Under the pieces are notes generated by a model, which did not search any database, was not told the origin of the DNA, and saw nothing but the letters and a program-made list of their open reading frames with translations. Positions 10,450-52,864 of a stretch of DNA of 52,864 nucleotides are shown here, piece by piece. Each line of letters starts with the position of its first letter. The stretch's first letter is position 1. The stretch is from assembly GCA_010692635.1 (NCBI GenBank), contig JAAHGL010000007.1:1-52864 (forward strand). The letters are read 5' to 3'. A program made the translations under genes and the position numbers. This DNA comes from Symploca sp. SIO2C1 (GTDB lineage: Bacteria > Cyanobacteriota > Cyanobacteriia > Cyanobacteriales > Coleofasciculaceae).

Positions 10450-11973
10450 TTAAATTCTGGAGTCAATTGATGAGCTTTCTGGTTGCATAGTGGGAGCAAC
10501 GTAATCTTCTTCACCTTCATGATGCTCAGCAAAGGAACCTTTTGGTTCCTTGAGGACGAACCAGCACAGGAACGCTACAACCATAGCAGCGACTCCTAGA
10601 ACTTGGAAGAAAATCCGGTTACCCACATCCCCTTCTGGTAACAAGCTGAAGATCGTCAGGTAAGCTACAGCTCCCACGTTGCCGTAAGCACCAACGTTAC
10701 CAGCAATCTGACCCGTCACCCGACGCTTGATCAGAGGGACAATGGCGAAGGTAGAACCCTCTGCCGCTTGGACAAAGAAGGAGCAAGCCATCGTCAGGAG
10801 AACAGCAGCTGGGAGGAACCAATTACCATTGACACTGCTCATCATGAGATAGCCAATCCCCATACCAGCAGTTAAGATTGCCATCGTGTTCTTGCGGCTA
10901 CCTAGCTTGTCAGAGATTAAGCCACCTCCAGGACGGGATACTAAGTTCATGAAAGCATAACTTGCAGCAATCATCCCGGCAGCCTGTTTACTCAAGCCGA
11001 AGGTGAGTTCAAAGAAGGCAGGTAGCATGGAAACAACTGCTAGTTCAGAGCCGAAGTTGACAATGTAGGTCAACTCTAGGATGGCAACTTGACTAAAGTT
11101 ATAACGCTCTTCGGGAGGATAACGCTTATTTCCTAGTAATAGGTCTTTGTTAACCTGCCAGCAACCGTAAGCTTGGAACAGATACAGACCGACCAAAAAT
11201 GCCCAGACGATGTAGAGTTGAGTTTGGTCGAGGAAACCAACCCCGTTCAAGCGCCAAGCCAAGACGCAAAGAATGCCAATTAGGGGAACATTCATCAGCA
11301 TTAGGAACCAGAAATCTTTCTTAGTCGTGACTTCGATTCCAGAAGTTTTTGCTGGTTTCTGATAAACCTTCCCAGGGGGCGTATCTTGGACGCTAAAGAA
11401 GTAGATCACACCGTAGACAGCTGCAATGATCCCCGTCAGAGCGATCGAAAGGCGCCAGTTAATCAGGGTACCTCCGCTAAAGGTAAGGATGGCGGCAACT
11501 GTAGGTAAGGTAAAGGCGGAAGCCGCTGAACCAAAGTTACCCCAGCCACCGTAGATTCCTTCCGCTAAACCAATATCCTTGGGAGGGAACCATTCAGCTA
11601 CCATGCGGATGCCAATTACAAAACCAGCACCAACAATACTCAATGCTAAACGGCTAATCACCAACTGGCTGAAGTTTTGTGCCAGAGCGAAGGTGATACA
11701 AGGAATTGCCGCATACATTAACAGCAGTGAGTAGGTAATCCTCGGTCCATACTTGTCTAACAGCATACCGATAATAATTCGAGCTGGTACTGTTAGAGCA
11801 ACGTTACAAATAGCGATCGTCCTGAGTTGTCCTATCTCTAGACCAAAGTCTTCTTTCACCGCCGTGGCTAGAGGTGCAAGGTTAAACCAAACCACGAAGG
11901 AGAGAAAGAAGGCAAACCAGGTCATATGTAAGATACGGTATCTACCGTGAAATGACCATAATTCTTTGAGCAT
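10450..11973 (-). CDS. nrtP: NrtP-type nitrate/nitrite permease (MFS, NNP family)
   Basis: A 507-residue polytopic membrane protein with about 12 hydrophobic segments. The NNP signature is clear: FVIGIRMVAEWFPP and GIYGGWGNFGSAASA on one half, ASYAFMNLVSRPGGGLISDK on the other. These glycine-rich and arginine residues line the nitrate path in NarK/NrtP proteins. It imports nitrate and nitrite across the plasma membrane and belongs to the MFS route rather than the NrtABCD ABC route. It is upstream of narB on the same strand. A perfect NtcA box about 177 bases upstream of the start predicts activation under nitrogen limitation. No nirA is adjacent in the window. Confidence 0.95.
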   Translation of the reverse strand: MLKELWSFHGRYRILHMTWFAFFLSFVVWFNLAPLATAVKEDFGLEIGQLRTIAICNVALTVPARIIIGMLLDKYGPRITYSLLLMYAAIPCITFALAQNFSQLVISRLALSIVGAGFVIGIRMVAEWFPPKDIGLAEGIYGGWGNFGSAASAFTLPTVAAILTFSGGTLINWRLSIALTGIIAAVYGVIYFFSVQDTPPGKVYQKPAKTSGIEVTTKKDFWFLMLMNVPLIGILCVLAWRLNGVGFLDQTQLYIVWAFLVGLYLFQAYGCWQVNKDLLLGNKRYPPEERYNFSQVAILELTYIVNFGSELAVVSMLPAFFELTFGLSKQAAGMIAASYAFMNLVSRPGGGLISDKLGSRKNTMAILTAGMGIGYLMMSSVNGNWFLPAAVLLTMACSFFVQAAEGSTFAIVPLIKRRVTGQIAGNVGAYGNVGAVAYLTIFSLLPEGDVGNRIFFQVLGVAAMVVAFLCWFVLKEPKGSFAEHHEGEEDYVAPTMQPESSSIDSRI

Positions 11974-12698: not shown

Positions 12699-12762
12699 GT
12701 CAGTTAAGAGAAATATATCGGTTAAAAAGCTACGGGAGCTGAAGGAGAGGAATTAGGGCTTA

Positions 12763-12865
12763 TACCAAATCCGCTTTACCAAGGGTCTATTAAAAAAAAT
12801 CAAAGCCTTTGTCTGGAAAAGATTTGGGGATTTTGATAAGTACCCCACAATAACCGGATTTGGTA
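12763..12865. mobile_element. 103-bp MITE with TACCAAATCCG ends and TTA duplication (copy 1)
   Basis: The terminal inverted repeats TACCAAATCCG/CGGATTTGGTA are perfect over 11 bp. TTA flanks both sides (12760-12762 and 12866-12868). The copy at 37955-38057 is 103 bp and differs at one position (CACAA versus CATAA). The right-hand TTA is also the first three bases of the next MITE-like element, so this copy inserted at that element's edge. No protein is encoded. Confidence 0.9.
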
Positions 12866-12960
12866 TTACAGCACTTTGCAGCTTAATGAGGTACATCTTA
12901 CTTCTGCCTCCTGCCTTCAAGCGACAAATTATGTACTTCACTTAGATGAAAACGCTGTAT
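12866..12960. mobile_element. MITE-like element with TTACAGC...GAGGTACA ends (copy 1)
   Basis: The left end reads TTACAGCACTTTGCAGC... then TGAGGTACAT. The right end, reverse complemented, reads (A)TACAGCGTTTTCATC... then TGAAGTACAT, giving imperfect inverted repeats of about 30 bp. A second copy with the same ends lies at 49318-49426. The interior is short and non-coding. Confidence 0.65.
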
Positions 12961-12973
12961 CTGAGCAGTATCA

Positions 12974-14344
12974 TCACCCTAGTGCAAAGATCTGAGGGCG
13001 GTTAGCTCGAATATCAAAGCTGTTGAGGTATTTAACAGGCTGACTAGGATCAAATTGGCGTTTGTCGATAAACACCTCAGCTGGTTCTACCTTCATCCGC
13101 TCACTGGGAAGCTCAATTTTTAATGCCTTGGCAACATCTTCATAGATCTTGACAGGATAAATCTTGTCGATCAGTTTATCCGCATCTTTGGGATACTCCT
13201 GTTGTTCACCCTGACGCCAACGAATTATTTGGGTTAGCAGCCAAACTCCGTGAGAACGCCAGGGATAGTTAGCATGATTGGGTGATTCTAGATAATCAGT
13301 ATCTTGGAAGTGGAATAAGTTGAAGTCAGGAATTGCCACAAGTCTGTCTTTCCCATCAAAGCCACCGTAGTTATAAGTACCCACAAGAGATCCTCCTATG
13401 GACTTGACATCAGTGTTGAGATACTTTCTTTGGGAAATAATCTTTGTAACTAACGGCTGGTTTTCTACTTGCTCGCAGAACTGGCAAGCTTCTAGTACAG
13501 CAGCAACCAAAGCTCTGGCAGTTTTGGGATTTTCCTTAACCCATGACTCCATAGTTGCCAGCACCTTTCCTGGATGACCCTGCCAAATATCCCGACTAAC
13601 AAAAGCGGTAAATCCAGCTTTTTCCAAAACTGCTTCCAGGTTCCAGGGAGCGGTGACACTATAACTATCTACCATCCCTGCCTGGATTTTATAAATCATT
13701 TGCGAAGGACTAATCTCAATCAACTCGATCTCTTTTTCTGGATTAATCCCCATCGTTGAGAGCCAGTAACGGCAGTTATAGTTATCTATCGAAGAACTTT
13801 CGATCGCAAACTGGGGTGGCTCATCAAATCCTCTGATATATTTTCTGTAAGAGTTGGCAAACTCCTGGAATTGGATGTATTCTGTCGAAGGGCGAATACC
13901 AGCTTTCCAAGCTTTTGGGGAAAGGGTGATACTGCTACCATTAAGGTTGAGTACCATCAAAGAAATCATGGGAACCTTTGTGGAAGCGAGTTGAGCAAGC
14001 ATCGGCATCCCGAATAAGGCAGCGGAGGCATCGAAACGGTTTTCGAGTAAACCCTCCTCAATAGCCTCCCAGTCATTTTGCTTACTGAGACTGACTTTAA
14101 GACCATAGCGTTCAAAAAATCCCTGTTCTTTGGCAATGATTAAGGGAGCACAGTCAATTGTAGGGACAAAACCAATAGTCAGGTCAGTTTTCTCTAATTT
14201 ACCAAAGTCAACCGCTGACTCTTCGCTATCTTTGCCAGAGCCGATGCGGTTTTGCAAATTGAAAAGATTATTTTCGCTACAAGCACTAAAGCTAAATCCA
14301 GCAGTTGCCAGACTGAGGTATTTGAGAAAATGGCGCCGTTCCAT
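12974..14344 (-). CDS. Orphan NrtA/CmpA-like substrate-binding lipoprotein
   Basis: A 456-residue periplasmic binding protein of the nitrate/bicarbonate (NrtA/CmpA, NMT1-like) type. The ATG at 14344 gives MERRHFLKYLSLATAGFSFSAC, a twin-arginine-like signal with the lipobox Cys at residue 22. A GTG six codons upstream is less likely. The mature part starts with LTIGFVPTIDCAPLIIAKEQGFFERYGL, typical of the family, and carries PWRSHGVWLLTQIIRW, also seen in NrtA/CmpA. No permease or ATPase gene is nearby. The setting next to nrtP-narB suggests anion (nitrate, nitrite, bicarbonate or cyanate) binding or sensing. Which ligand cannot be decided by eye; it could serve an ABC system encoded elsewhere. 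Confidence 0.8.
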   Translation of the reverse strand: MERRHFLKYLSLATAGFSFSACSENNLFNLQNRIGSGKDSEESAVDFGKLEKTDLTIGFVPTIDCAPLIIAKEQGFFERYGLKVSLSKQNDWEAIEEGLLENRFDASAALFGMPMLAQLASTKVPMISLMVLNLNGSSITLSPKAWKAGIRPSTEYIQFQEFANSYRKYIRGFDEPPQFAIESSSIDNYNCRYWLSTMGINPEKEIELIEISPSQMIYKIQAGMVDSYSVTAPWNLEAVLEKAGFTAFVSRDIWQGHPGKVLATMESWVKENPKTARALVAAVLEACQFCEQVENQPLVTKIISQRKYLNTDVKSIGGSLVGTYNYGGFDGKDRLVAIPDFNLFHFQDTDYLESPNHANYPWRSHGVWLLTQIIRWRQGEQQEYPKDADKLIDKIYPVKIYEDVAKALKIELPSERMKVEPAEVFIDKRQFDPSQPVKYLNSFDIRANRPQIFALG

Positions 14345-14524
14345 ACTTGAAGTTCCCAACACAACAAACTGTAGATATGATATGGACCTACAAGATCGCT
14401 ATGCTACAGGGAAAAAAGAAAGGGAAAGATAATCATACCATTTGGGTGAATGATTGTTGCCTCCTTTATTACCATTTCATGGTTTTCCTCCGGAGCCCCC
14501 TACCTTCAGAAGGGTAAACGAAAT

Positions 14525-32412: not shown

Positions 32413-35400
32413 ATGACAACCTTCTTTGATGCCTTCATCTCCTATGGAAGAGCCGACAGTAAAGCCTTTGCCCAAAAACTTCAAGCTTGTCTCCAGGAAC
32501 AGGGTTTTAAAGTCTGGTTTGATTTCAATGATATTCCCCTAGCTGTAGACTTCCAGCATCAGATTGATGATGGTATTGAGAAATCCAATCACTTCCTCTT
32601 TGTTATTGCTCCTCATGCTGTCAATTCGCCCTATTGCCTCAAAGAAATTGAGCTAGCGATTAAGCTCAATAAACGGATTATTCCTCTCTTACACGTCATG
32701 TCCATTAGCCAGTCAATCTGGCAGCAGCGCTATCCTAATGGCACTCAGGAAGAGTGGGAAGCGTATCAGGAAAAGGGGTTACACGAAAGCTATCAGAATA
32801 TGCACCCAACTATCCGTAAACTGAACTGGGTGTATTTCCAAGAAGAGACAAACGATTTTGAAAAATCCTTAGCCGACTTAGTTAAGTTACTCCGTTCTCA
32901 TACTGACTATGTGGAACAACATACTCAGTTGTTAGTTAAAGCACTTGAGTGGGAGAGGAATCAAAAGCAAAATAGCTGGCTCTTAGTTGGGGAAGAGAGG
33001 CAACAGGCTGAAGCTTGGCTGAAGATAAGGTTTAAGGATGAACAACCCCCTTGTACTCCCACTGATTTACATTGCGAATACATCACTGAAAGTGTCAAAA
33101 ATGCCAATAACTTAATGACACAGGTGGTTATTGCCTGCAGTGAAGAGGATCAAGCGACGATGGCAAAGATTCGTTGCAGTTTAAGGCGAGAAAGTATTAC
33201 CGTTTGGACTAATACAACCGATATTCGCACCGGAGAAGCCTTTGAGGAGGCGATTAAGCGGGGAATTGAACAAGCGGATAATTTAGTCTATCTACTGTCA
33301 CGGGACTCGGTAAACTCAACCTACTGTCAACAAGAATTAGACTTGGCAGTATCACTGCACAAGCGGATTATTCCCCTATTGGTAAGGGAAACCTCAGAGG
33401 CACAAGTACCCTTAGCGCTACGAGGATTACAGTATATTGACCTTACGGATAATGTCAAAGAAGAGGATTATCGGCTTGATGAAAGTGAATTATTGAGAAT
33501 TCTACATCAGGATGAAGCTTACTATCGAGAGCATAAGATATTACTGACTAAAGCACTCAAGTGGCAAGAGCAATACTCCAATCCCAGTATTCTGCTACGA
33601 GGCTATAACTTACGCAGTGCAGAGGCATGGTTAAAGGTGGCGCAGAAAAGGACACAACACCCACCCACTGCCTTACAGGCAGAATTCATGGCTGAAAGTC
33701 TGCGACAACCGCCGTTTGAATCCCTGGATGTGTTTATTTCTTACTCCCGTGCAGATTCGGATTTGGCGAGAAAGCTGAATGATGGGTTGCAGATGCAGGG
33801 AAAAACCACCTGGTTTGATCAGGAAAGTATTGCCTCGGGGAGTGACTTTCAGCAGGAAATTCAGCTAGGTATTAAAGCTTGTGATAACTTTTTGTTTATT
33901 CTCTCACCCCGTTCCATCAAATCTCCCTACTGTGCTGACGAGGTGGAATATGCGGCAAGTTTAAATAAGCGTTTTGTCACGGTATTGCATCAGCCAGTAG
34001 ATACAGCAGATTTACATCCAGAGTTAGCCAAGATACAGTGGATTGATTTTAATCAGCACCAACGGGAGTTTAATGCCAATTTCAATCAATTGGTTAGAAC
34101 TTTAGATACGGATAGAGAACACGTTCACATGCATAGCAAATGGTTGCAGCGAGCGTTGGAGTGGGAACAGAAGGGAAAAATTGATGATTTATTGTTGCGA
34201 GGCAGTGAATTTTTGCTGGCGAAAAACTGGTTAGAGAAAACAGCGCAACAAGAGAAACAGCCTGGGGCGACTGGATTACAGCAAGAATTTATTGAGGCAA
34301 GTGAACAGGCAATTACGGTAGCAGAGGAAGAGGAAAAACGCCGACAAGAGCAAATGCTACACTTGCAAGCAGAACGGGCAAAGGAAGCAGAAGCTCGATT
34401 AGTCGAACAGAAAAAAAGTGCTAAACGACAAAAAATATTCCTGGTAGCTGTCAGTACAGCCTTAGTCGCTGCGGTTGGTGTTGGTGCGGTAGCAGTCTAT
34501 CAATGGAAACGAGCCAAAAAAATCACTGAAGGTCAAGTCAATGCTTTAGGTCAATTTTCCTCGATGCTAGCTAAGTCAAATCGGGACTTCGATGCACTAA
34601 TTGAAGCGATCCGAGCCGGGAGTTTACTGGAAGGGTTGATGGGAAGGAAGTTGGAACTTGAGGACAAACCACAACTTCAAGAGCCAATTTTGAGAACTTT
34701 GCAGTCGTTTATTTATGAAGATAAATTTAAACAACACAATGTTCTTGTTCATCAAGCTACAGTCTTCAGCGTGGCATTCAGCCGAGACGGCAACACCATT
34801 GCTTCTGCTAGTGATGATAACACAGTAAAACTGTGGAATCTACAAGGAGAGCTGCTCCGTCCCCTCGAAGGTCATAAAGCTCCAGTCTACAGCGTAGCAT
34901 TCAGCCCAGATGGCAACACTATTGCTTCTGCTAGTGATGATAACACAGTAAAGCTGTGGAATCTACAAGGAGAGCTACTCCGTACCCTCGAAGGTCATAA
35001 AGCTCCAGTCTACAGCGTAGCGTTCAGCCCAGATGGCAACACCATTGCTTCTGCTAGTGGGGATAACAAAGTGAGGCTGTGGAACCGACAAGGAGAGCTA
35101 CTCCGTACCCTCGAAGGTCATGAAGCTCCAGTAATCAGCGTAGCGTTCAGCCCAGATGGCAACACCATTGCTTCTGCTAGTGGGGATAACAAAGTGAGGC
35201 TGTGGAATCGACAAGGAGAGCGGCTCCGTACCCTCGAAGGTCATGAAGCTCCAGTAATCAGCGTAGCATTCAGCCGAGACGGCAACACCATTGCTTCTGC
35301 TAGTAGGGATGAAACAGTAAAGCTGTGGAATCTACAAGGAGAGCTACTCCGTACTCTCAAAGGTCATAAAGATTTCGTCAGGAGCGTAGCATTCAGCCGA

Positions 35401-36555
35401 GACGGCAACACCATTGCTTCTGCTAGTGGAGATAAAACAGTAAAGCTGTGGAATCTACAAGGAGAGCTACTCCGTACTCTCGAAGGTCATGATGGTTTTG
35501 TCACCAGCGTAGCATTCAGCCGAGACGGCAACACTATTGCTTCTGCTAGTGATGATAACACAGTAAAGCTGTGGAATCGACAAAGAAAGCTACTCCGTAC
35601 CCTCAAAGGTCATGATGGTTTTGTCACCAGCGTAGCATTCAGCCGAGACGGCAACACTATTGCTTCTGCTAGTGATGATAACACAGTAAAGCTGTGGAAT
35701 CTACAAGGAAAACTACTCCGTAACCTCAAAGGTCACAATGGTTTTGTCAACAGCGTAGCGTTCAGCCCAGACGGCAATACCATTGCTTCTGCTAGTAGGG
35801 ATGAAACAGTAAAGCTGTGGAATCTACAAGGAGAGCTACTCCGTACCCTCAAAGGTCATGATGGTTTTGTCACCAGCGTAGCGTTCAGCCAAGACGGCAA
35901 CACCATTGCTTCTGCTAGTGATGATAAAACAGTAAAGTTGTGGAATCTACAAGGAGAGCTACTCCGTACCCTCAAAGGTCATGATGGTTTTGTCACCAGC
36001 GTAGCATTCAGCCGAGACGGCAACACCATTGCTTCTGCTAGTGAAGATAAAACAGTAAAGCTGTGGAATCTACAAGGAAAGCTACTCGATAAAATCGAAG
36101 GCCATGAATTGACAGTCACCAGCGTAGCGTTCAGCCAAGACGGCAACACCATTGCTTCTGCTAGTGAAGATAAAACAGTAAAGCTGTGGAATCTACAAGG
36201 AAAGCTACTCGATAAAATCGAAGGCCATGAATTGACAGTCACCAGCGTAGCGTTCAGACCAGACAGCAACACCATTGCTTCTGCTGGTCAGATGAGCAAG
36301 GTAAAGCTGTGGAATCTACAAGGAGAGCTACTCCATATTCTCCCAGGTCATGAAGATTTCGTTACCAGCGTAGCATTCAGCCCAGATGGAAAGACCATTG
36401 CTTCTGCCAGTGCCGATAACACAGTGAAGCTGTGGAATTTAGAGGATTTAACTCTAGATTCACTCATGGAGGAAGCTTGTAATTGGGTTAAGGATTACTT
36501 GAAGCACAACGCCCCAGAAAGTGATCAGTCTTTGTGTGATGATTTTGCACATTAA
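32413..36555 (+). CDS. Triple TIR - membrane segment - 14x WD40 protein
   Basis: A 1380-residue protein. Three TIR modules lie at about 1-165, 235-362 and 434-570. Each holds the acidic residue expected at the NADase position in S-x-YC--E: E78, E308 and E510. Each is followed by a linker with the pattern LL-KALEW...LL-G...AEAWL. TIR2 is most divergent at its start (VVIACSEEDQ versus FISYSRAD). A charged coiled region (about 640-672) precedes one hydrophobic helix (about 674-697). Fourteen 41-residue WD40 units (about 775-1345) follow, enough for two seven-bladed propellers; repeats are nearly identical even in DNA. TIR domains cleave NAD+ or act as scaffolds in immunity and cell-death signalling. 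WD40 arrays recognise partners. A sensor-effector role, perhaps defence or programmed death, is inferred. Confidence 0.85.
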   Translation: MTTFFDAFISYGRADSKAFAQKLQACLQEQGFKVWFDFNDIPLAVDFQHQIDDGIEKSNHFLFVIAPHAVNSPYCLKEIELAIKLNKRIIPLLHVMSISQSIWQQRYPNGTQEEWEAYQEKGLHESYQNMHPTIRKLNWVYFQEETNDFEKSLADLVKLLRSHTDYVEQHTQLLVKALEWERNQKQNSWLLVGEERQQAEAWLKIRFKDEQPPCTPTDLHCEYITESVKNANNLMTQVVIACSEEDQATMAKIRCSLRRESITVWTNTTDIRTGEAFEEAIKRGIEQADNLVYLLSRDSVNSTYCQQELDLAVSLHKRIIPLLVRETSEAQVPLALRGLQYIDLTDNVKEEDYRLDESELLRILHQDEAYYREHKILLTKALKWQEQYSNPSILLRGYNLRSAEAWLKVAQKRTQHPPTALQAEFMAESLRQPPFESLDVFISYSRADSDLARKLNDGLQMQGKTTWFDQESIASGSDFQQEIQLGIKACDNFLFILSPRSIKSPYCADEVEYAASLNKRFVTVLHQPVDTADLHPELAKIQWIDFNQHQREFNANFNQLVRTLDTDREHVHMHSKWLQRALEWEQKGKIDDLLLRGSEFLLAKNWLEKTAQQEKQPGATGLQQEFIEASEQAITVAEEEEKRRQEQMLHLQAERAKEAEARLVEQKKSAKRQKIFLVAVSTALVAAVGVGAVAVYQWKRAKKITEGQVNALGQFSSMLAKSNRDFDALIEAIRAGSLLEGLMGRKLELEDKPQLQEPILRTLQSFIYEDKFKQHNVLVHQATVFSVAFSRDGNTIASASDDNTVKLWNLQGELLRPLEGHKAPVYSVAFSPDGNTIASASDDNTVKLWNLQGELLRTLEGHKAPVYSVAFSPDGNTIASASGDNKVRLWNRQGELLRTLEGHEAPVISVAFSPDGNTIASASGDNKVRLWNRQGERLRTLEGHEAPVISVAFSRDGNTIASASRDETVKLWNLQGELLRTLKGHKDFVRSVAFSRDGNTIASASGDKTVKLWNLQGELLRTLEGHDGFVTSVAFSRDGNTIASASDDNTVKLWNRQRKLLRTLKGHDGFVTSVAFSRDGNTIASASDDNTVKLWNLQGKLLRNLKGHNGFVNSVAFSPDGNTIASASRDETVKLWNLQGELLRTLKGHDGFVTSVAFSQDGNTIASASDDKTVKLWNLQGELLRTLKGHDGFVTSVAFSRDGNTIASASEDKTVKLWNLQGKLLDKIEGHELTVTSVAFSQDGNTIASASEDKTVKLWNLQGKLLDKIEGHELTVTSVAFRPDSNTIASAGQMSKVKLWNLQGELLHILPGHEDFVTSVAFSPDGKTIASASADNTVKLWNLEDLTLDSLMEEACNWVKDYLKHNAPESDQSLCDDFAH
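34760..36450 (+). repeat. 123-bp tandem repeats encoding the WD40 units
   Basis: Roughly fourteen 123-bp units within the TIR-WD40 gene. The core stretch coding for GNTIASAS-D---VKLWN is almost invariant at DNA level, while the bases for the GH-x-x-V surface positions vary (GHKAPV, GHEAPV, GHDGFV, GHELTV). Adjacent units such as 7-8, 10-11 and 11-12 are close to identical, suggesting recent duplications. Confidence 0.9.
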
Positions 36556-36758: not shown

Positions 36759-37886
36759 ATGATTCCCAAGATTACTACTGTTCCCATTCAACACCTAGCC
36801 TCAGGCGATCGCCTTGCCATTCAAGTCTATCAATTTAGTGGTAGTCAACCAGGAAAAAAAGCATACTTACAAGCCAATCTCCACGGTGCGGAAATTGTCG
36901 GTAATGCAGTGATTCATCAACTGATTGAATTTCTCATGAGTCTTGATGATAACCAGCTAGTTGGGGAAATTTGGTTAGTCCCTGTCTGCAACCCCCTCAG
37001 TACGAATCAGCGCCATCACGCTTTTTCTACAGGCAGATTTAATCCTTATGATGGCAAAGACTGGAACCGTATCTTCTGGGATTATGAGAAAAGGTGTGAT
37101 GATTTGGCTGCCTTTGCTCAATCTCAGATCAATCTTGATGTTACTGAAATTTACAGCAACTATCTGGAACGAATTCAAGCAAGTTTTGCTCAAGAACTAG
37201 CTAAAATACAATCTCCTAGTGGATTGCCCTTCCGTGACCGCTATCGCTATCAGCTACAATCTTTATGTCTTGATGCCAACTATGTGATTGATATTCATAG
37301 TTCTACAGACCAAGCTATTGATTATCTGTATTGCTTTCACAGTCGTGAAGAAAGTGCTAAGGCTTTTATTCTTAACTATAGTATTTTGATGAATGAGTAC
37401 GATGGAAATACCTTTGATGAAGCTTTTCTCAAACCCTGGTTAGCACTGGAAAAGCAATTAGCAGAACTCGGTAAAACAATTAAGTTTGAGCTTGAATCCT
37501 GGACATTGGAGTTAGGTTCTGGTAGGGAGATGAATCCAGAATCAGTAGCAAAAGGGATTCAGGGGATCAAAAATTACTTAGCCCAAAAGGGAATGTTGAA
37601 AATTGCTGATTTTCCTCTAGCAGAAACGGCATCTCACCGGATAAATTTTGTTGGCAAAAGTCAGATTAGAAGATACTATGCCCCCCTAGGTGGCATGATT
37701 CAAGCAAAAGTTGAACTAGGTAGCCAGGTTAAGGCAGGAGAACGACTCTATCAGCTACTGAGCTTCAATAAAAATCGAGAATTACCGACTGTAATCGATG
37801 TCTGTGCAGAAACTGAAGGTATAGTTTTTACCGTATCCACTAATCATGCTGTCAATGAAGGGGAGTATGTACTATCAGTGGCATAG
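36759..37886 (+). CDS. Succinylglutamate desuccinylase/aspartoacylase-family deacylase
   Basis: A 375-residue M14-like zinc hydrolase. Zinc ligands are visible as H42 and E45 (NLHGAEIVG) and H180 (VIDIHSSTD). FELESWTLELGSG supplies the conserved glutamate region, and the C-terminal beta domain (GGMIQAKVELGSQVKAGERL) is also typical. Family enzymes cleave N-acyl groups from amino acids or small molecules. It is longer than AstE or aspartoacylase because of a helical insertion at about 105-165. It lies 203 bases after the TIR-WD40 gene and ends before a hairpin terminator near 38116. The substrate cannot be inferred. Confidence 0.8.
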   Translation: MIPKITTVPIQHLASGDRLAIQVYQFSGSQPGKKAYLQANLHGAEIVGNAVIHQLIEFLMSLDDNQLVGEIWLVPVCNPLSTNQRHHAFSTGRFNPYDGKDWNRIFWDYEKRCDDLAAFAQSQINLDVTEIYSNYLERIQASFAQELAKIQSPSGLPFRDRYRYQLQSLCLDANYVIDIHSSTDQAIDYLYCFHSREESAKAFILNYSILMNEYDGNTFDEAFLKPWLALEKQLAELGKTIKFELESWTLELGSGREMNPESVAKGIQGIKNYLAQKGMLKIADFPLAETASHRINFVGKSQIRRYYAPLGGMIQAKVELGSQVKAGERLYQLLSFNKNRELPTVIDVCAETEGIVFTVSTNHAVNEGEYVLSVA

Positions 37887-37954
37887 CTAGTGTTTGCTGA
37901 ATAAGTAACAAGTAACAAGTAAAAAGTAACAAGTAAGAAGGAATGAAGTATTTA

Positions 37955-38057
37955 TACCAAATCCGCTTTACCAAGGGTCTATTAAAAAAAATCAAAGCCT
38001 TTGTCTGGAAAAGATTTGGGGATTTTGATAAGTACCCCATAATAACCGGATTTGGTA
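37955..38057. mobile_element. 103-bp MITE with TACCAAATCCG ends and TTA duplication (copy 2)
   Basis: 102 of 103 bases match the copy at 12763-12865. It is flanked by TTA on both sides (37952-37954, 38058-38060). The related repeat at 52575-52590 has a single TTA at the same point (GCATTTATCCTCG) and is therefore an empty target site. Confidence 0.92.
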
Positions 38058-38115
38058 TTATCCTCGTGGGTGAGCACTTCCATTCTCCAAGGTTACTCAG
38101 GGATTTCCCATGAAA

Positions 38116-38160
38116 GTGCAAGGAAATTGAACCCATCGATACAATTTCCTTGCACTTTTT
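38116..38160 (+). terminator. 14-bp perfect hairpin followed by T5
   Basis: GTGCAAGGAAATTG (38116-38129) pairs perfectly with 38142-38155 across 12 bases, and TTTTT follows at 38156. It lies between the aspartoacylase gene (+) and the Rpn gene (-), so it could end the + transcript. Related hairpins occur at 52640-52684 and 52751-52785, indicating a dispersed repeat. Confidence 0.65.
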
Positions 38161-38219
38161 CAGGGTAAAAATTCTTGAAATTCTTGTCTGGCATGGCTTC
38201 CACACTTATGCAGCAAGCC

Positions 38220-39227
38220 CTAAATAGAGTGTTCCTGTAGCCAGTGGAGCAAATCATCGCTAGTCTGAAAATCCCACATGGCATCTGCTAAATTATCTAA
38301 ATTTTGGGAATTCAAGCCAACGATAGCCGCACTCAGTTGTGAGGTGATTTCTGGGAAACGGCGCTCAAGCTGTCCTAATAGTAAGCTTCTTTTACCTTCT
38401 TCCCTACCTTCTTCCCTACCTTCTTCCCTACCTTCTTCCCTACCTTCTTCCCTACCTCTCATTTGAGCCTCTTCAATCTGTTCGATTTGCCAAGTCGCTT
38501 CAAACTCTTGGGTACTTCTGATACTGGCTTCGTAACTCTTGTTGTCCATATAACGGTTATATGCCGCTCTTTCTTGTTCTGAGAGATTATTGACTCTTAG
38601 AGTTTCCTTGGCTTTTACCATTCCTTTGGCTCCAAATTCCTCTTTGATTTCGCTATTTTTGAGAAAATAGATCCATTCTTCTAGGCTGGTTTTCGCTGTC
38701 CCTTTGAAATTCTTTACTTTGAGCAGGTAGTATTCTGGGAAAATATCTGCTACTTTGCCGATATTATATTTTCTTTCTTGAGCTAAGGTCGGTTCCAGGA
38801 TCTTACCTGTATTCAAACCAAGGAACTCACAGCGATGACGATAAATATAGTCATCTCCTTTACCGAGGTTAAAGTAGACGATATTTACTGAGTAGATTTT
38901 CCGAATTTTGCCGTACTCTTCCCCTTGTTCAAGATATTCGGTGACTAGCTGGGAAACGCCGTAGAGCATCCGATGAAAATAATCTAGTTGGGAGTTGTTT
39001 TGTACTTCGATGAGGATTAACTCGGAGTCTTCGGTTTCCGCAAGAATATCGACACGGTTGCTTTTATCTTCGAGTGTCTGTTGATTGCTTTCACTTTCGA
39101 GGAGGGTTTTGATGGTGATGTCAGTATGTAATAACTCGCTTAAAAACCCTTCCAAGACTACATAATTTGCTTTATTGCGCAGTAGTCTTTTGATGGCCCA
39201 ATCAAAGCGTATATGTCTCGTAGCCAT
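38220..39227 (-). CDS. Rpn/PD-(D/E)XK nuclease-transposase family protein with DUF4351
   Basis: A 335-residue protein. The start is taken at the ATG at 39227 (MATRHIRFDWAIKRLL, the normal family opening); the frame continues upstream without similarity. The PD-(D/E)XK core is visible as D60 and E74-V-Q76 (SNRVDILAETEDSELILIEVQ). The C-terminal RSLLLGQLERRFPEI...LADAMWDF is a DUF4351 domain. A run of five 12-bp repeats encodes REEG units at about residues 256-277. Rpn-type proteins are linked to RecA-independent recombination and are multicopy in cyanobacteria. It is not an IS transposase by gene structure: no inverted repeats are linked to it. Confidence 0.85.
   Translation of the reverse strand: MATRHIRFDWAIKRLLRNKANYVVLEGFLSELLHTDITIKTLLESESNQQTLEDKSNRVDILAETEDSELILIEVQNNSQLDYFHRMLYGVSQLVTEYLEQGEEYGKIRKIYSVNIVYFNLGKGDDYIYRHRCEFLGLNTGKILEPTLAQERKYNIGKVADIFPEYYLLKVKNFKGTAKTSLEEWIYFLKNSEIKEEFGAKGMVKAKETLRVNNLSEQERAAYNRYMDNKSYEASIRSTQEFEATWQIEQIEEAQMRGREEGREEGREEGREEGREEGKRSLLLGQLERRFPEITSQLSAAIVGLNSQNLDNLADAMWDFQTSDDLLHWLQEHSI
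38395..38459. repeat. 12-bp tandem repeat (CTTCTTCCCTAC)5 inside the Rpn gene
   Basis: Five exact 12-bp units encode (G)REE(G) repeats on the minus strand. Being a multiple of three, changes in copy number keep the frame. REEG runs of variable length are usual just before DUF4351. Confidence 0.9.
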
Positions 39228-39478: not shown

Positions 39479-42400
39479 TTAAGAACTTTTCCCTTCAATC
39501 ACGGCTTCTGCTTGGAGCACAATCCCTCTCAACTCTTCCAATGTATCCTGTTCAACAGACTGCCACAAAGAACGCTGATGAGCTTCTAGTAATCTTTCTG
39601 CCATATCTCGCAATGCCCAAGGATTCTTCTGCTGGATAAACTCCTGTACCTTAGGATCAAAAACATACGCTTCTGCTACCCCTTGATACATATGATCTGC
39701 TACACAATTAGCTGTAGCATCGTAGGCAAATAAATAGTCTACCGTTGCTGCCATTTCAAAAGCTCCTTTGTAGCCGTGACGCATTACTCCTTCAATCCAC
39801 TTAGGATTAACTACACGGGAACGATATACCCGTGCAATTTCTTCCCGTAATTGTCGTACTTTAGGATTTTCGGGGATAGAGTTGTCACCGAAATAGGTTT
39901 GAGGATTTTTACCCCTCAAAGCTCTGACAGCAGCAGTTAGTCCCCCCTGGAACTGATAATAGTCGTCAGAATCGAGCAAATCATGTTCTCGATTATCTTG
40001 ATTGTGCAGAACGATTTGCATTTGTTTTAAGCGTTGTTCAAAGGCTTCTGCTGCGGGAACTCCGTTTAATCCGCCTTGAGTTGGTGCAGAAGTTCTTTCT
40101 GGAGCGTGTTTGTCAACTTTTCCCTCGGATTGAGATCCCCCTAAATCCCCCTTATTAAGGGGGACTTTGATTGAATTCTCCTCCTTATTAAGAGAGACTT
40201 GGGCTGAATGCTCCCCCCTTGTTAAGGGGGGCTGGGGGGGATCTCCAGGTTTTACAACAGAATCTAGCTTTTCCTGAGTAATGGAAGGAACATCCGTATA
40301 TGCGTAACTACTCCAGTTAATATAAGCACGAGCTAAGTCTTGCTCATCCGTCCAGTTTTGCGCTTCGATTAAACCTTGTAACCCTGCACCATAAGCACCG
40401 GGTTTAGAGCCAAAGATGCGATAATGCGATCGCATTTCTGCCTCCTCTTTACTTAAACCTGTTGCTTGCCACTGGACTTGTTCTTGTTGAGCTTGCGATG
40501 CTAGGGGGTTTTCCTCTGCCGGTTCATCCAAAGCAGCAACTGCTTTCACTGCTTGGTCAAATAAACTAATTAAGTTAGGAAAGGCATCCCGGAAAAAGCC
40601 AGAAATCCGCAGGGTTACATCCACCCGAGGACGTCCCAAGACTGATACTGGTAGAATTTCAAAGTCTACTACCCGACGAGATGGCCCATCCCACACTGGC
40701 TGTACTCCCAACAATGCCAGTGCTTCTGCTAAGTCATCACCGCCAGTACGCATGGTGGAAGTTCCCCAAACTGACAATCCTAAGGTTTTAGGGTATTCAC
40801 CATTCTCCTGAGTATAGCGTTCAATGAGGACTTCTGCTGCTTTACGACCTACATCCCAAGCGGTTTCCGTGGGGATAGCACGGATGTCTACAGAGTAAAA
40901 GTTGCGTCCCGTAGGTAAAACTTCCGGACGTCCCCTGGTTGGTGCGCCAGCAGGACCACTAGCAATATAGCACCCATCTAGTCCTCGTAACAGCTGGGTG
41001 AGTTCTTGCTTAGTTTGTTGGAGAGCTGGCAAAAGGCGATCGCTTATCCATTGTAATTCGTTGGTGATTGGGGAATTGGGAATTGGGAATTGGGAATTGG
41101 GAATTGGGAATTGGGAATTGGGAATTGGGAATTGGGAATTGGGAATTGGGGATGATGGATTAGTTATTAGGTGTTCTACTAATGCAGCTGCTTGTTGTTC
41201 TAATGCTTCAATGAGATCACCAGTGGTGCGACAATTTTTATCAGTGGCAATTGGCAGACTATCAACTAACTGATTATTGAAATCAGCTGTAAGAGGCTCG
41301 AAATCTAATCCCCAATCCTGAGCTAGAGCGCGAGTTAAACCTATACGACCATTATTACCAGGATGACGAGCGATCGCTACAATTAAATCTCTCAATTGAC
41401 GACCTTGGGGACATTGTCCTACAATATGCAGTCCATCTCGAATTTGGGCTTCTTTTAATTCACACAAGTAGCCATCAATCGAATTCAAAATTAACAATTC
41501 AAAATTAACAATTTCACCTTTACTGGTTTCCTTGCCTAATTTTTCCTGGTTAACTCCTAGATCCTCATGCAAGTTTTCCTGTAGGAGCAGTTGCACAATG
41601 CGATCGCGAATTATTGGTAACCTGGAAGGGTCTAAACTCTGAGCTTCGTAATATTCATCAATCAAACCTTCGAGTTTTTGCAAGGGACCATAGAGTTCAG
41701 CACGGGTCATCGGTGGCGTAAGATGATCAATGATTACTGCTTGCCCACGACGCTTGGCTTGGGAACCTTCACCAGGATCATTAACAATAAAAGGATATAG
41801 ATGAGGCATGGCTCCTAGTGCCACTTCTGGATAACAGTTACTCGACAATGCCACACTCTTACCGGGTAACCATTCCAAATTCCCGTGCTTACCCACATGC
41901 ACCACTGCTTGTGCTTCAAACTTGACACGCAACCAATAGTAAAAGGCTAAATATGCAGGAGTCGGCTCTAAATCTGGAGCATGATAATTCAAACTTGGAT
42001 CAAGATCATAGCCTCGTGACGGTTGGATGCCGATGAAGATATTGCCTAGTTGGATACCAGGAATTGGGAATTGGGAATTGGGAATTGGGAATTGGGAATT
42101 GGGAATATCTCCCTTGTCTTCCTTCTCCTCCTTGTCTCCTTTATCTCCGCGTCTCCGCGTCTCCGTGTCTCCGCGTCTCCGTGTCTCCCATATCTCCTCA
42201 TCTCCCCATCTCCTCAAATCCCAGCGATCGCATATTCCCTCTTGGACCGGTTGGGGTAAGGTGGCAAAATACTGTTGATACTCTGCTACAGATAGCTGCT
42301 GGTTTACTTGGCGTAATTCTCGTCCCTCTGGATCATTAGTTACTCCGGCAGTGAGACGAGCGATTAATTCATCGCCAGTTGTTGGGATGTCCTCAACCTG

Positions 42401-43246
42401 ATAGCCAGCTTGTTGCAGTGCTTTGAGAATTTCTACACAACTTGCAGGGGTATCTAAGCCTACCCCATTGGCAAGACGTCCATCTCGATTGGGGTAGTTG
42501 GCCAAAATTAGGGCAACTCGTCGCTGTGCTGGGGGGGTTTGTTGTAGACTGAGCCAATTAGCAGCTAAATCTGCGACAAATTCAATGCGATCGCAAACTG
42601 GTTGATAAACTACTACATCTGTCTCCAGCATGGGATTCCAGGTTTGCACTGACTTAAAAGAAACTGCACGACTAATAATACGTCCATCCACTTCTGGTAG
42701 TGCTACGTTCATTGCCGTATCTCTGGGCGTCAATCCCTGAAACTGCTCACTCCACTGCTCTACTGTGCCGCCACTGAAGATTACCTGCAACACTGGCACA
42801 TCTAGACACTGCCAAAAATCTAACTGGGGTGTCTCAGTTTCTAACCTGGCGAGGGAGAAACTGGTGGTATTGAGCAACAGTCTAATCCCTACACCCTCTT
42901 TAGGTTGGAAATAGGTGAGCAACTCAGCTTGTACATCCGGTTCTCGCACAGAAGAAACAAATATTGGTACTGGTACTAACTGCCGTTTTACTAAAGCTTG
43001 GCAAAGCGCATCAATCGGTGCAGTATTTCCAGCTAGATAATGAGCACGGTAGAACAAAATACCAATTTTGTTGTTTGGGAATTGGGAATTGGGAATTGGG
43101 AATTGGGAATTGGGAATTGGGAATTGGGAATTGGGAATGTCTCCCTTATCTTCCCTATCTCCCCATCTCCTCATCTCCCTATCTCCCCACACTCCCCCAT
43201 CTCCCCAGCTCCCCATCTCTCCATCTCTCCATAGATAAACTCCCAC
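39479..43246 (-). CDS. cobN: CobN-like cobaltochelatase subunit, N-terminally truncated and repeat-invaded
   Basis: A 1255-residue open frame from a GTG. Core CobN signatures are present: [53 protein letters not shown] and [21 protein letters not shown]. CobN is the large ATP-dependent subunit inserting cobalt in cobalamin synthesis. The homologous sequence continues upstream of the GTG to about 43321 ([14 protein letters not shown], then [10 protein letters not shown]) but then meets a stop at 43328. The usual first roughly 150 residues are missing, replaced by a truncated foreign gene. Four low-complexity insertions are read in frame: 43077-43240, 42060-42200, 41071-41147 and 40132-40245. 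Whether the product works is uncertain; it may be an expressed relic. Confidence 0.8.
40132..40245. repeat. 114-bp palindromic GATCCCCC repeat inside cobN
   Basis: Ends GAGATCCCCC and GGGGGGATCTC are inverted, with inner TTATTAAGGGGGA-type units repeated three times. At 114 bp (38 codons) it keeps the cobN frame and adds a segment reading PPLTRGE...VSLNKEE...[10 protein letters not shown]. This repeat family is common in cyanobacterial intergenic DNA. Confidence 0.85.
41071..41147 (+). repeat. (GGGAATT)11 array inside cobN
   Basis: Eleven exact 7-bp units (77 bp). On the minus strand they encode repeating NSQFPIP within the cobN frame. One unit gained or lost would shift the frame. Confidence 0.97.
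42060..42205 (+). repeat. Composite cassette in cobN: (GGGAATT)n plus TCTCCGCG octamers
   Basis: About five to six GGGAATT units (42060-42107) are followed by ATATCTCCCTTGTCTTCC and then TCTCCGCG/TCTCCGTG/TCTCCCCA octamers. The minus strand reads [17 protein letters not shown]..., then [15 protein letters not shown].... The same order of parts recurs at 43077. Confidence 0.9.
43077..43235 (+). repeat. Composite cassette at the cobN 5' end: (GGGAATT)8 plus TCTCCCCA octamers
   Basis: Eight GGGAATT units (43077-43132) and a partial ninth, then GTCTCCCTTATCTTCCC and (T/C)ATCTCCCC-type octamers. The cobN frame passes through it immediately after the GTG. Confidence 0.9.
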
Positions 43247-52411: not shown

Positions 52412-52864
52412 GAAGGCAGGAGGGAAGAAAGCTTATACGGGGGTGAGCGAAAAAAAGGGTGGGGAGCTGGGGGAGCTGAGGGAGCTGAGGGAGAAGAGAG
52501 AACTTATAATTTTTGGATACTTAGGGCTTGCTGAATAAGTAACAAGTAACAAGTAAAAAGTAACAAGTAAGAAGGAATTAAGCATTTATCCTCGTTTTGA
52601 GCACTTGTATTCCCCAAGGTCACCCAGGGATTTCCCATGAAAGTGCAAGGTTTTTGAACTAAAAGATACCATTTCCTTGCACTTGGGCTCGAAAAAAATG
52701 ATTGAAAGCAAAGTCTGGTATAGCTTTCAAGCTTTTATTTTCCTTGAAAAGTGCAAGAAAATTGAGCTCATCAATGCAATTTCCTTGCATCTTCTTAACC
52801 CATAATCCCCTTTAAAGACTATTCTAAACTCCTAAACTCCTATTCTCCTGACTCCTGACTCCTG
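52412..52864. repeat. Terminal repeat region
   Basis: GGGAGCTG/GGGAGCTGA octamer-like runs (52460-52496) are followed by a second copy of the TTGCTGAATAAG-ended repeat (from about 52522). That copy includes the AAGTAAC heptamers, an empty MITE target (GCATTTATCCTCG), a GTGCAAGG/CCTTGCAC hairpin and a further GTGCAAGAAAATTG hairpin. The last 98 bases repeat the window start. Confidence 0.85.

Follow-up and report, generated by a model that had tools for sequence, protein, structure and literature searches.

IS630 and ISY100 are described as duplicating the dinucleotide TA when they insert (PMC2170065), a second source gives the same duplication (PMC7325037), and 34 of 39 ISY100 insertions obtained in vitro carried the normal TA duplication (PMC2170065). 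The elements considered here fall into the same transposase family, with its cut-and-paste movement, DDE catalysis and HTH DNA binding (PMC2170065), but differ in that TNA, rather than TA, is duplicated in the present lineage. Among described systems, RUP of Streptococcus pneumoniae comes closest: it is a 107-bp MITE, present in about 108 copies and linked to IS630-Spn1 (PMC2229807). Our element is like RUP in its size, its intergenic placement, its IS630-like ends and its entry into other mobile elements; RUP, as that paper describes it, inserts at TA (PMC2229807), whereas our family duplicates TNA, and the IS elements related to it encode D-x31-E transposases. As a MITE, the element that we describe is ordinary, and the burst that spread it is strikingly fresh. 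Nezha, reported by Zhou in 2008, is said to be another recently active cyanobacterial MITE of similar size.

A 103-bp MITE inside another repeat

The window, by which we mean the whole stretch of 52,864 nucleotides that was analysed (contig JAAHGL010000007.1 of Symploca sp. SIO2C1, the host), carries a 103-bp MITE on the plus strand at 37955..38057. An earlier sequence-only reading had proposed exact ends for it, and direct reading bears these out: the termini are perfect 11-bp inverted repeats, TACCAAATCCG at 37955..37965 on the plus strand and its counterpart at 38047..38057 on the minus strand, and the arms beyond them agree in part (22 of 35 positions). With one mismatch allowed, the 11-bp end occurs five times in the window, compared with a shuffle mean of 0.78 and with none of 100 shuffles reaching five; at the same tolerance TTATACCAAATCCG occurs 180 times in the genome (91 + 89), compared with 3 times for the reversed control. 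Flank reading and empty-site comparison both place a TTA target duplication at 37952..37954 and 38058..38060, and the junctions read ...AAGTATTTA/TACCAAATCCG...CGGATTTGGTA/TTATCCTCG... A 117-aa ORF that overlaps the MITE on the minus strand (37852-38205) is unsupported as a gene.

The sequence hit by the MITE is a MITE-like repeat in its own right (37889..38221, plus strand), recognised by self-alignment of the window and by its copies in the genome; the surrounding interval 37889-38222 aligns with 52517-52589 (92%) and 52598-52734 (77%). A MITE-free copy had been claimed near 52580, and it is there: the related empty site at 52580..52595 (plus strand) reads AAGCATTTATCCTCG from 52580, with a single TTA at 52586-52588 and no element, and this repeat at the window end is GCATTTATCC, again with the MITE absent. 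Elsewhere in the host genome, at least 12 more copies of the outer repeat have their two halves joined directly, with the MITE absent, while at least 3 of the host's 44 MITE copies lie inside such repeats. The outer repeat (37889-38221, with the other copy starting at 52523) has AGGGCTTGCTGAATAAGT-type ends and empty copies of 215-226 bp. Its 4-bp flanks are equal in 6 of 9 elements read, the window copy being unequal (AGCT/AAAT).

A second MITE copy, at 12763..12865 on the plus strand, has the consensus allele and is flanked by TTA at 12760-12762 and 12866-12868. As had been noted from the letters alone, it differs from the 37955 copy at one position, the latter being C86T relative to the genome consensus. 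The 12763 copy is placed between ORFs 10450-11973 and 12974-14362, and both window copies are intergenic with long ORFs on either side. In a genome of the same genus (G005), the flanks of the 12763 copy lie 121 bp apart with no MITE end between them at up to two mismatches; the same interval in the host is 408 bp, and the difference therefore exceeds the MITE alone.

Elsewhere in the window, positions 1-98 are identical to 52767-52864 and a scaffold N follows directly after the window end, which may reflect an overlap in the assembly or a contig that is circular or ends in repeats. The 1380-aa ORF 32413-36555, which by reading alone resembles a TIR-domain and WD40-repeat protein, contains fourteen in-register 123-bp repeats at 34626-36524. 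GGGAATT-type heptamer repeats run in frame at 41033-41213, 42046-42141 and 43046-43177 of the 1255-aa ORF 39479-43246, and also occur elsewhere in the window.

Forty-four copies and a TNA target

Searching the host assembly (8.17 Mb, 470 contigs, about 96% complete) with the core pattern and a tolerance of three mismatches, we found 44 MITE copies, of which 43 match the core exactly. Over the 103 bp, 22 copies have the consensus, 16 have G66T and five have C86T, and one outlier has four changes. Beyond the three alleles, the 43 copies show no further difference at all, which bounds private change at less than about 7e-4 per site (95% bound, 43 copies). Because only three alleles and no private mutations are seen, the burst is very recent, as the comparison of the two window copies had suggested. 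An intact 103-bp copy is absent from two genomes of the same genus, which hold one and two partial matches, so the burst is either younger than that split or its products were lost there. Related 103-bp elements do occur in sister genera (roughly 70-82% match; equal TNA flanks in 6 of 7 read), which makes the MITE family older than this burst. The exact core pattern gave no matches in the named genomes, a set that may omit the host or very near genomes, and the MITE was not found in plasmid and phage collections.

The flanking 3-mers of the 44 copies are TAA/TAA in 17, TCA/TCA in 12, TTA/TTA in seven, TGA/TGA in six and TAA/TCA in two. Thus, a perfect 3-bp duplication is present in 42 of 44 copies, the flanks are TNA in all 44, and the remaining two differ at N. 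Since TAA, TCA, TTA and TGA are all used, the target is TNA. The sequence-only reading had called a TTA duplication and had taken copies with other flanks as a reason to doubt it. The 3-bp TTA stands at both window copies and proves too narrow for the genome as a whole: non-TTA flanks are common, yet all are TNA, and the claim is refined rather than lost. With the copies read in consensus orientation, A or C occupies the middle target position in 29 of the 42 equal-flank copies (binomial p 0.02), a possible orientation preference at the TNA target.

We compared the joined flanks of the 44 copies with the stretches of DNA that had been retrieved, less than the whole genome. Related empty sites were recovered for 14 of the 44 sites, 10 of which aligned gaplessly (L001, L004, L007, L015, L017, L019, L021, L024, L045 and L056). 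These ten cover TTA, TAA, TCA and TGA targets, and each target occurs once per empty site, indicating insertion into pre-existing sequence. Three further alignments are gapped (L185, L187 and L195), and one site, L029, is ambiguous and sits in a tandem repeat, as does L024. The element is thus short, non-coding, multicopy and bounded by inverted repeats, with target duplications and matching empty sites, as a MITE should be. A non-mobile structural repeat, such as a REP-like hairpin spread by recombination, could also be short, non-coding and foldable, and the MITE can fold (single-strand DNA energy z -2.79, with 2 of 200 shuffles as low). Nevertheless, its insertions are precise, duplicate the target, sit in unrelated flanks and have related empty sites, and we regard such a repeat as exceedingly improbable and treat the element as a mobile one. 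Other short elements in the host genome, of 100, 118, 119 and 227 bp (L041, L047, L053, L055, L058 and L002), share the MITE's ends and lie between TNA flanks; among them L041, L053 and L055 have an internal GTAGAGACG-type palindrome.

IS630-family elements with the same ends

A full-length IS with TACCAAATCCG ends had been suggested as the thing to look for, and the lack of any such cyanobacterial transposon as grounds for rejecting the MITE. Such elements exist in other cyanobacteria; they are about 1165 bp long, encode an IS630-family transposase and are flanked by TNA duplications. One of them, L071 in genome G003, was traced from a weak 33-bp match to the MITE right end and is a 1165-bp IS running from TACCAAATCCG to CGGATTTAGTA between TCA and TCA. 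It has two overlapping ORFs, pieces of which match HTH, DDE_3 and IS630 models, the first piece falling below the IS630 cut-off. Its relative L098 in genome G038 has an intact 363-aa ORF, identical 11-bp ends and TAA/TAA flanks, and L229 in Moorena has TACCAAATCCG as its left end, a right end that is one base off, and TGA. Partner elements reach 204.5 bits on NF033545 (cut-off 100) and match DDE_3, HTH_33 and HTH_23 above cut-off, that is, they have an IS630/DDE_3 transposase with HTH domains. The partner transposase is matched in 35 of 120 sampled genomes of the order (E <= 1e-20), many of the matches being more distant members, and the named genomes contain 14 partner loci, including loci in Moorena, Symploca, Microcoleus, Crocosphaera, Okeania and Microcystis.

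Over 29 terminal positions, the MITE right end agrees with the L071 left end at 25 and with both L098 ends at 24. In comparisons with 12 IS ends, agreement is 17-25 positions for the right end (17-19 for Okeania ends, 18-21 for Moorena ends) and 15-19 for the left end, the poorer match of the two. Partners of this kind were found in other genomes and none in the host: we detected no D-x31-E-lineage transposase in the host assembly (470 contigs, about 96% complete), and we therefore infer the driver from other genomes. The sole DDE_3 match in the host (C157:9680-9847, L164) is what remains of a D-x34-E IS630 element, split by an outer-repeat element. A search for solved structures with sequence similar to the transposase found none, and the predicted structure, with a pLDDT that averages 61.6 and stays mostly below 50 in the catalytic part, is too poor for use.

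TNA is also duplicated by the IS1031/ISL2-like groups of the IS5 superfamily. Given this, and given that the IS630 candidate is missing from the host assembly, the driver could have been an IS5-superfamily (IS1031/ISL2-like) or PIF/Harbinger-like transposase, with the likeness to IS630 ends arising by convergence. However, a TNA duplication is insufficient on its own, and it is with the IS630 elements that the MITE shares its entire 11-bp end, sequence further inside the ends and the target rule. A search of the host genome for an IS5-type partner with MITE ends found none, with no DDE_Tnp_4 match and two weak DDE_Tnp_1 matches whose ends were unpaired. We consider an IS5-type or PIF/Harbinger-like driver unlikely; the MITE is very probably a non-autonomous element mobilised in trans by a D-x31-E transposase of the IS630 family.

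A 3-bp duplication in the IS630 relatives

Ends of the IS copies were called from inverted repeats plus a terminal TA, blind to the flanks. We read 66 IS loci (among them 8 of 9 known places in G117, 3 of 5 in G056 and 2 of 3 in G112) and removed three rows as duplicate flanks, leaving 63 distinct places. The TNA/TA counts leave out extra loci in G035, G039, G042, G044, G067, G073, G086 and G105, those in G039 and G044 showing no clear duplication, as well as Thermus L281, which has no convincing ends. Identical 3-mers flank 50 of the 63 places, namely 48 TNA, one TAC (Hyella) and one TTC (Thermus), and the 13 unequal places are end-calling errors or have unequal N. Corrected by hand, 51 places are equal, eight are unequal at N only, and four have no credible ends (L141, L142, L143 and L110). 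L137 had been mis-called by the program and reads TAA/TAA by its own ends; L150, L156, L157 and L234 had been called out of register and, once corrected, have TNA on both sides with unequal N, as do L152, L101, L230 and L237. The right flank that three G117 copies (L152, L156 and L158) have in common suggests that unequal N arose by recombination between copies.

All ten IS copies in G028, read with their own ends, are TNA/TNA. We searched five of these insertions as joined flanks in seven genomes of the same genus; four gave junction-spanning matches, 17 in total, 14 of which were read. The empty sites of L132, L128 and L136 (3, 5 and 4 places; 12 in total) contain exactly one TCA each, and the two for L131 align but read TCG or TTG, not TCA. 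Outside cyanobacteria, the eight copies with resolved ends (Methylocystis, one; Deinococcus, one; Azospirillum ISAzs14, two; Paracoccus, two; Thermus, two) all carry equal 3-mers on the two sides, TNA in seven and TTC in one. ISAva6 and ISAzs14, both named IS630-like, have D-x31-E IS630-family transposases and ends starting TAC; the copies read here show TGA for ISAva6 and TCA and TTA for ISAzs14. They differ from our partner elements in end sequence, and the ISAva6 protein is 41% identical to that of L098.

The element ends do start and finish with TA, and it takes a comparison with empty sites to tell such elements from canonical ones. If the IS630 partner duplicated TA only, as IS630 and ISY100 are described as doing, then the matching TNA outside would be a target preference and the TA would be the element-terminal one. 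The empty sites speak against this, since for both MITE and IS copies they contain a single TNA and lack TATA at the junction; in 42 of 44 MITE copies, moreover, the two flanks agree at N. The TAC/TAC and TTC/TTC cases put the third base in the target DNA, outside the element. We judge a TA-only duplication very improbable. As the partner elements carry a 3-bp, mostly TNA, duplication rather than the 2-bp TA of canonical IS630, we treat them as a variant lineage of this transposase family and not as canonical members.

Catalytic spacing and phylogeny

The second D and the E of the transposase are separated by 31 residues in 38 loci, by 34 in 11 loci and by 33 in L110, and L246 has a second motif with spacing 37. 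Spacing 31 also holds in ISAva6, Methylocystis, Paracoccus, G075, G056, G112, G117, L109, L112 and L116, and G081 has 32; part of these added spacings, including L113/L114, were counted by hand. Partner elements thus have 31 residues, or 32 in G081, and not the D-x34-E spacing of the TA-type elements that we read. The D-x34-E group has TA/TAGC-type ends, and its outer 3-mers differ in all five elements with ends read, a control that consists of ends and flanks without empty sites and draws three of its five elements from one strain. In a tree of 37 rows, one branch (support 99/95) splits 27 x31 rows from eight x34 rows, in a tree that was flagged for long branches and in which many rows carry no measured duplication. 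We lean, with modest confidence, towards a model in which IS630 comprises two lineages of different target chemistry: D-x34-E transposases would cut TA with a 2-nt stagger, and D-x31-E transposases (once x32; in Cyanobacteria, Deinococcota and Alphaproteobacteria) would cut TNA with a 3-nt stagger, a shorter catalytic stretch accompanying a longer stagger.

A model for the burst and its implications

We infer that an IS630-type transposase moved the host MITE, and the strand chemistry may have been as follows. A D-x31-E transposase, supplied in trans, would bind the TACCAAATCCG-type ends and excise the element by cut and paste. Joining of the excised element at a TNA site would follow, with the strands staggered by 3 nt, and repair would leave TNA duplicated. 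In the host, three source alleles very recently gave rise to 43 copies, of which at least three landed, like the one at 37955, in an older MITE-like repeat. The helper transposase may later have been lost from the host, or lost in assembly.

Among the matches listed by searches of the open literature, with ISfinder outside their scope, none describes a TNA-duplicating IS630 branch, the most promising one using TnAs as element names; occurrences of the 11-bp end were unrelated by title, as were those of DD31E among the matches listed. The MITE exposes a TNA-duplicating IS630 lineage that is apparently little recognised or under-described. This branch departs from the usual TA rule of its family and does so with a different catalytic spacing, which is a warning for the automatic annotation of IS630 ends. 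TNA is a compact and easily testable target rule, and setting the two putative lineages side by side would be a natural way to ask how DDE transposases fix the length of their stagger.
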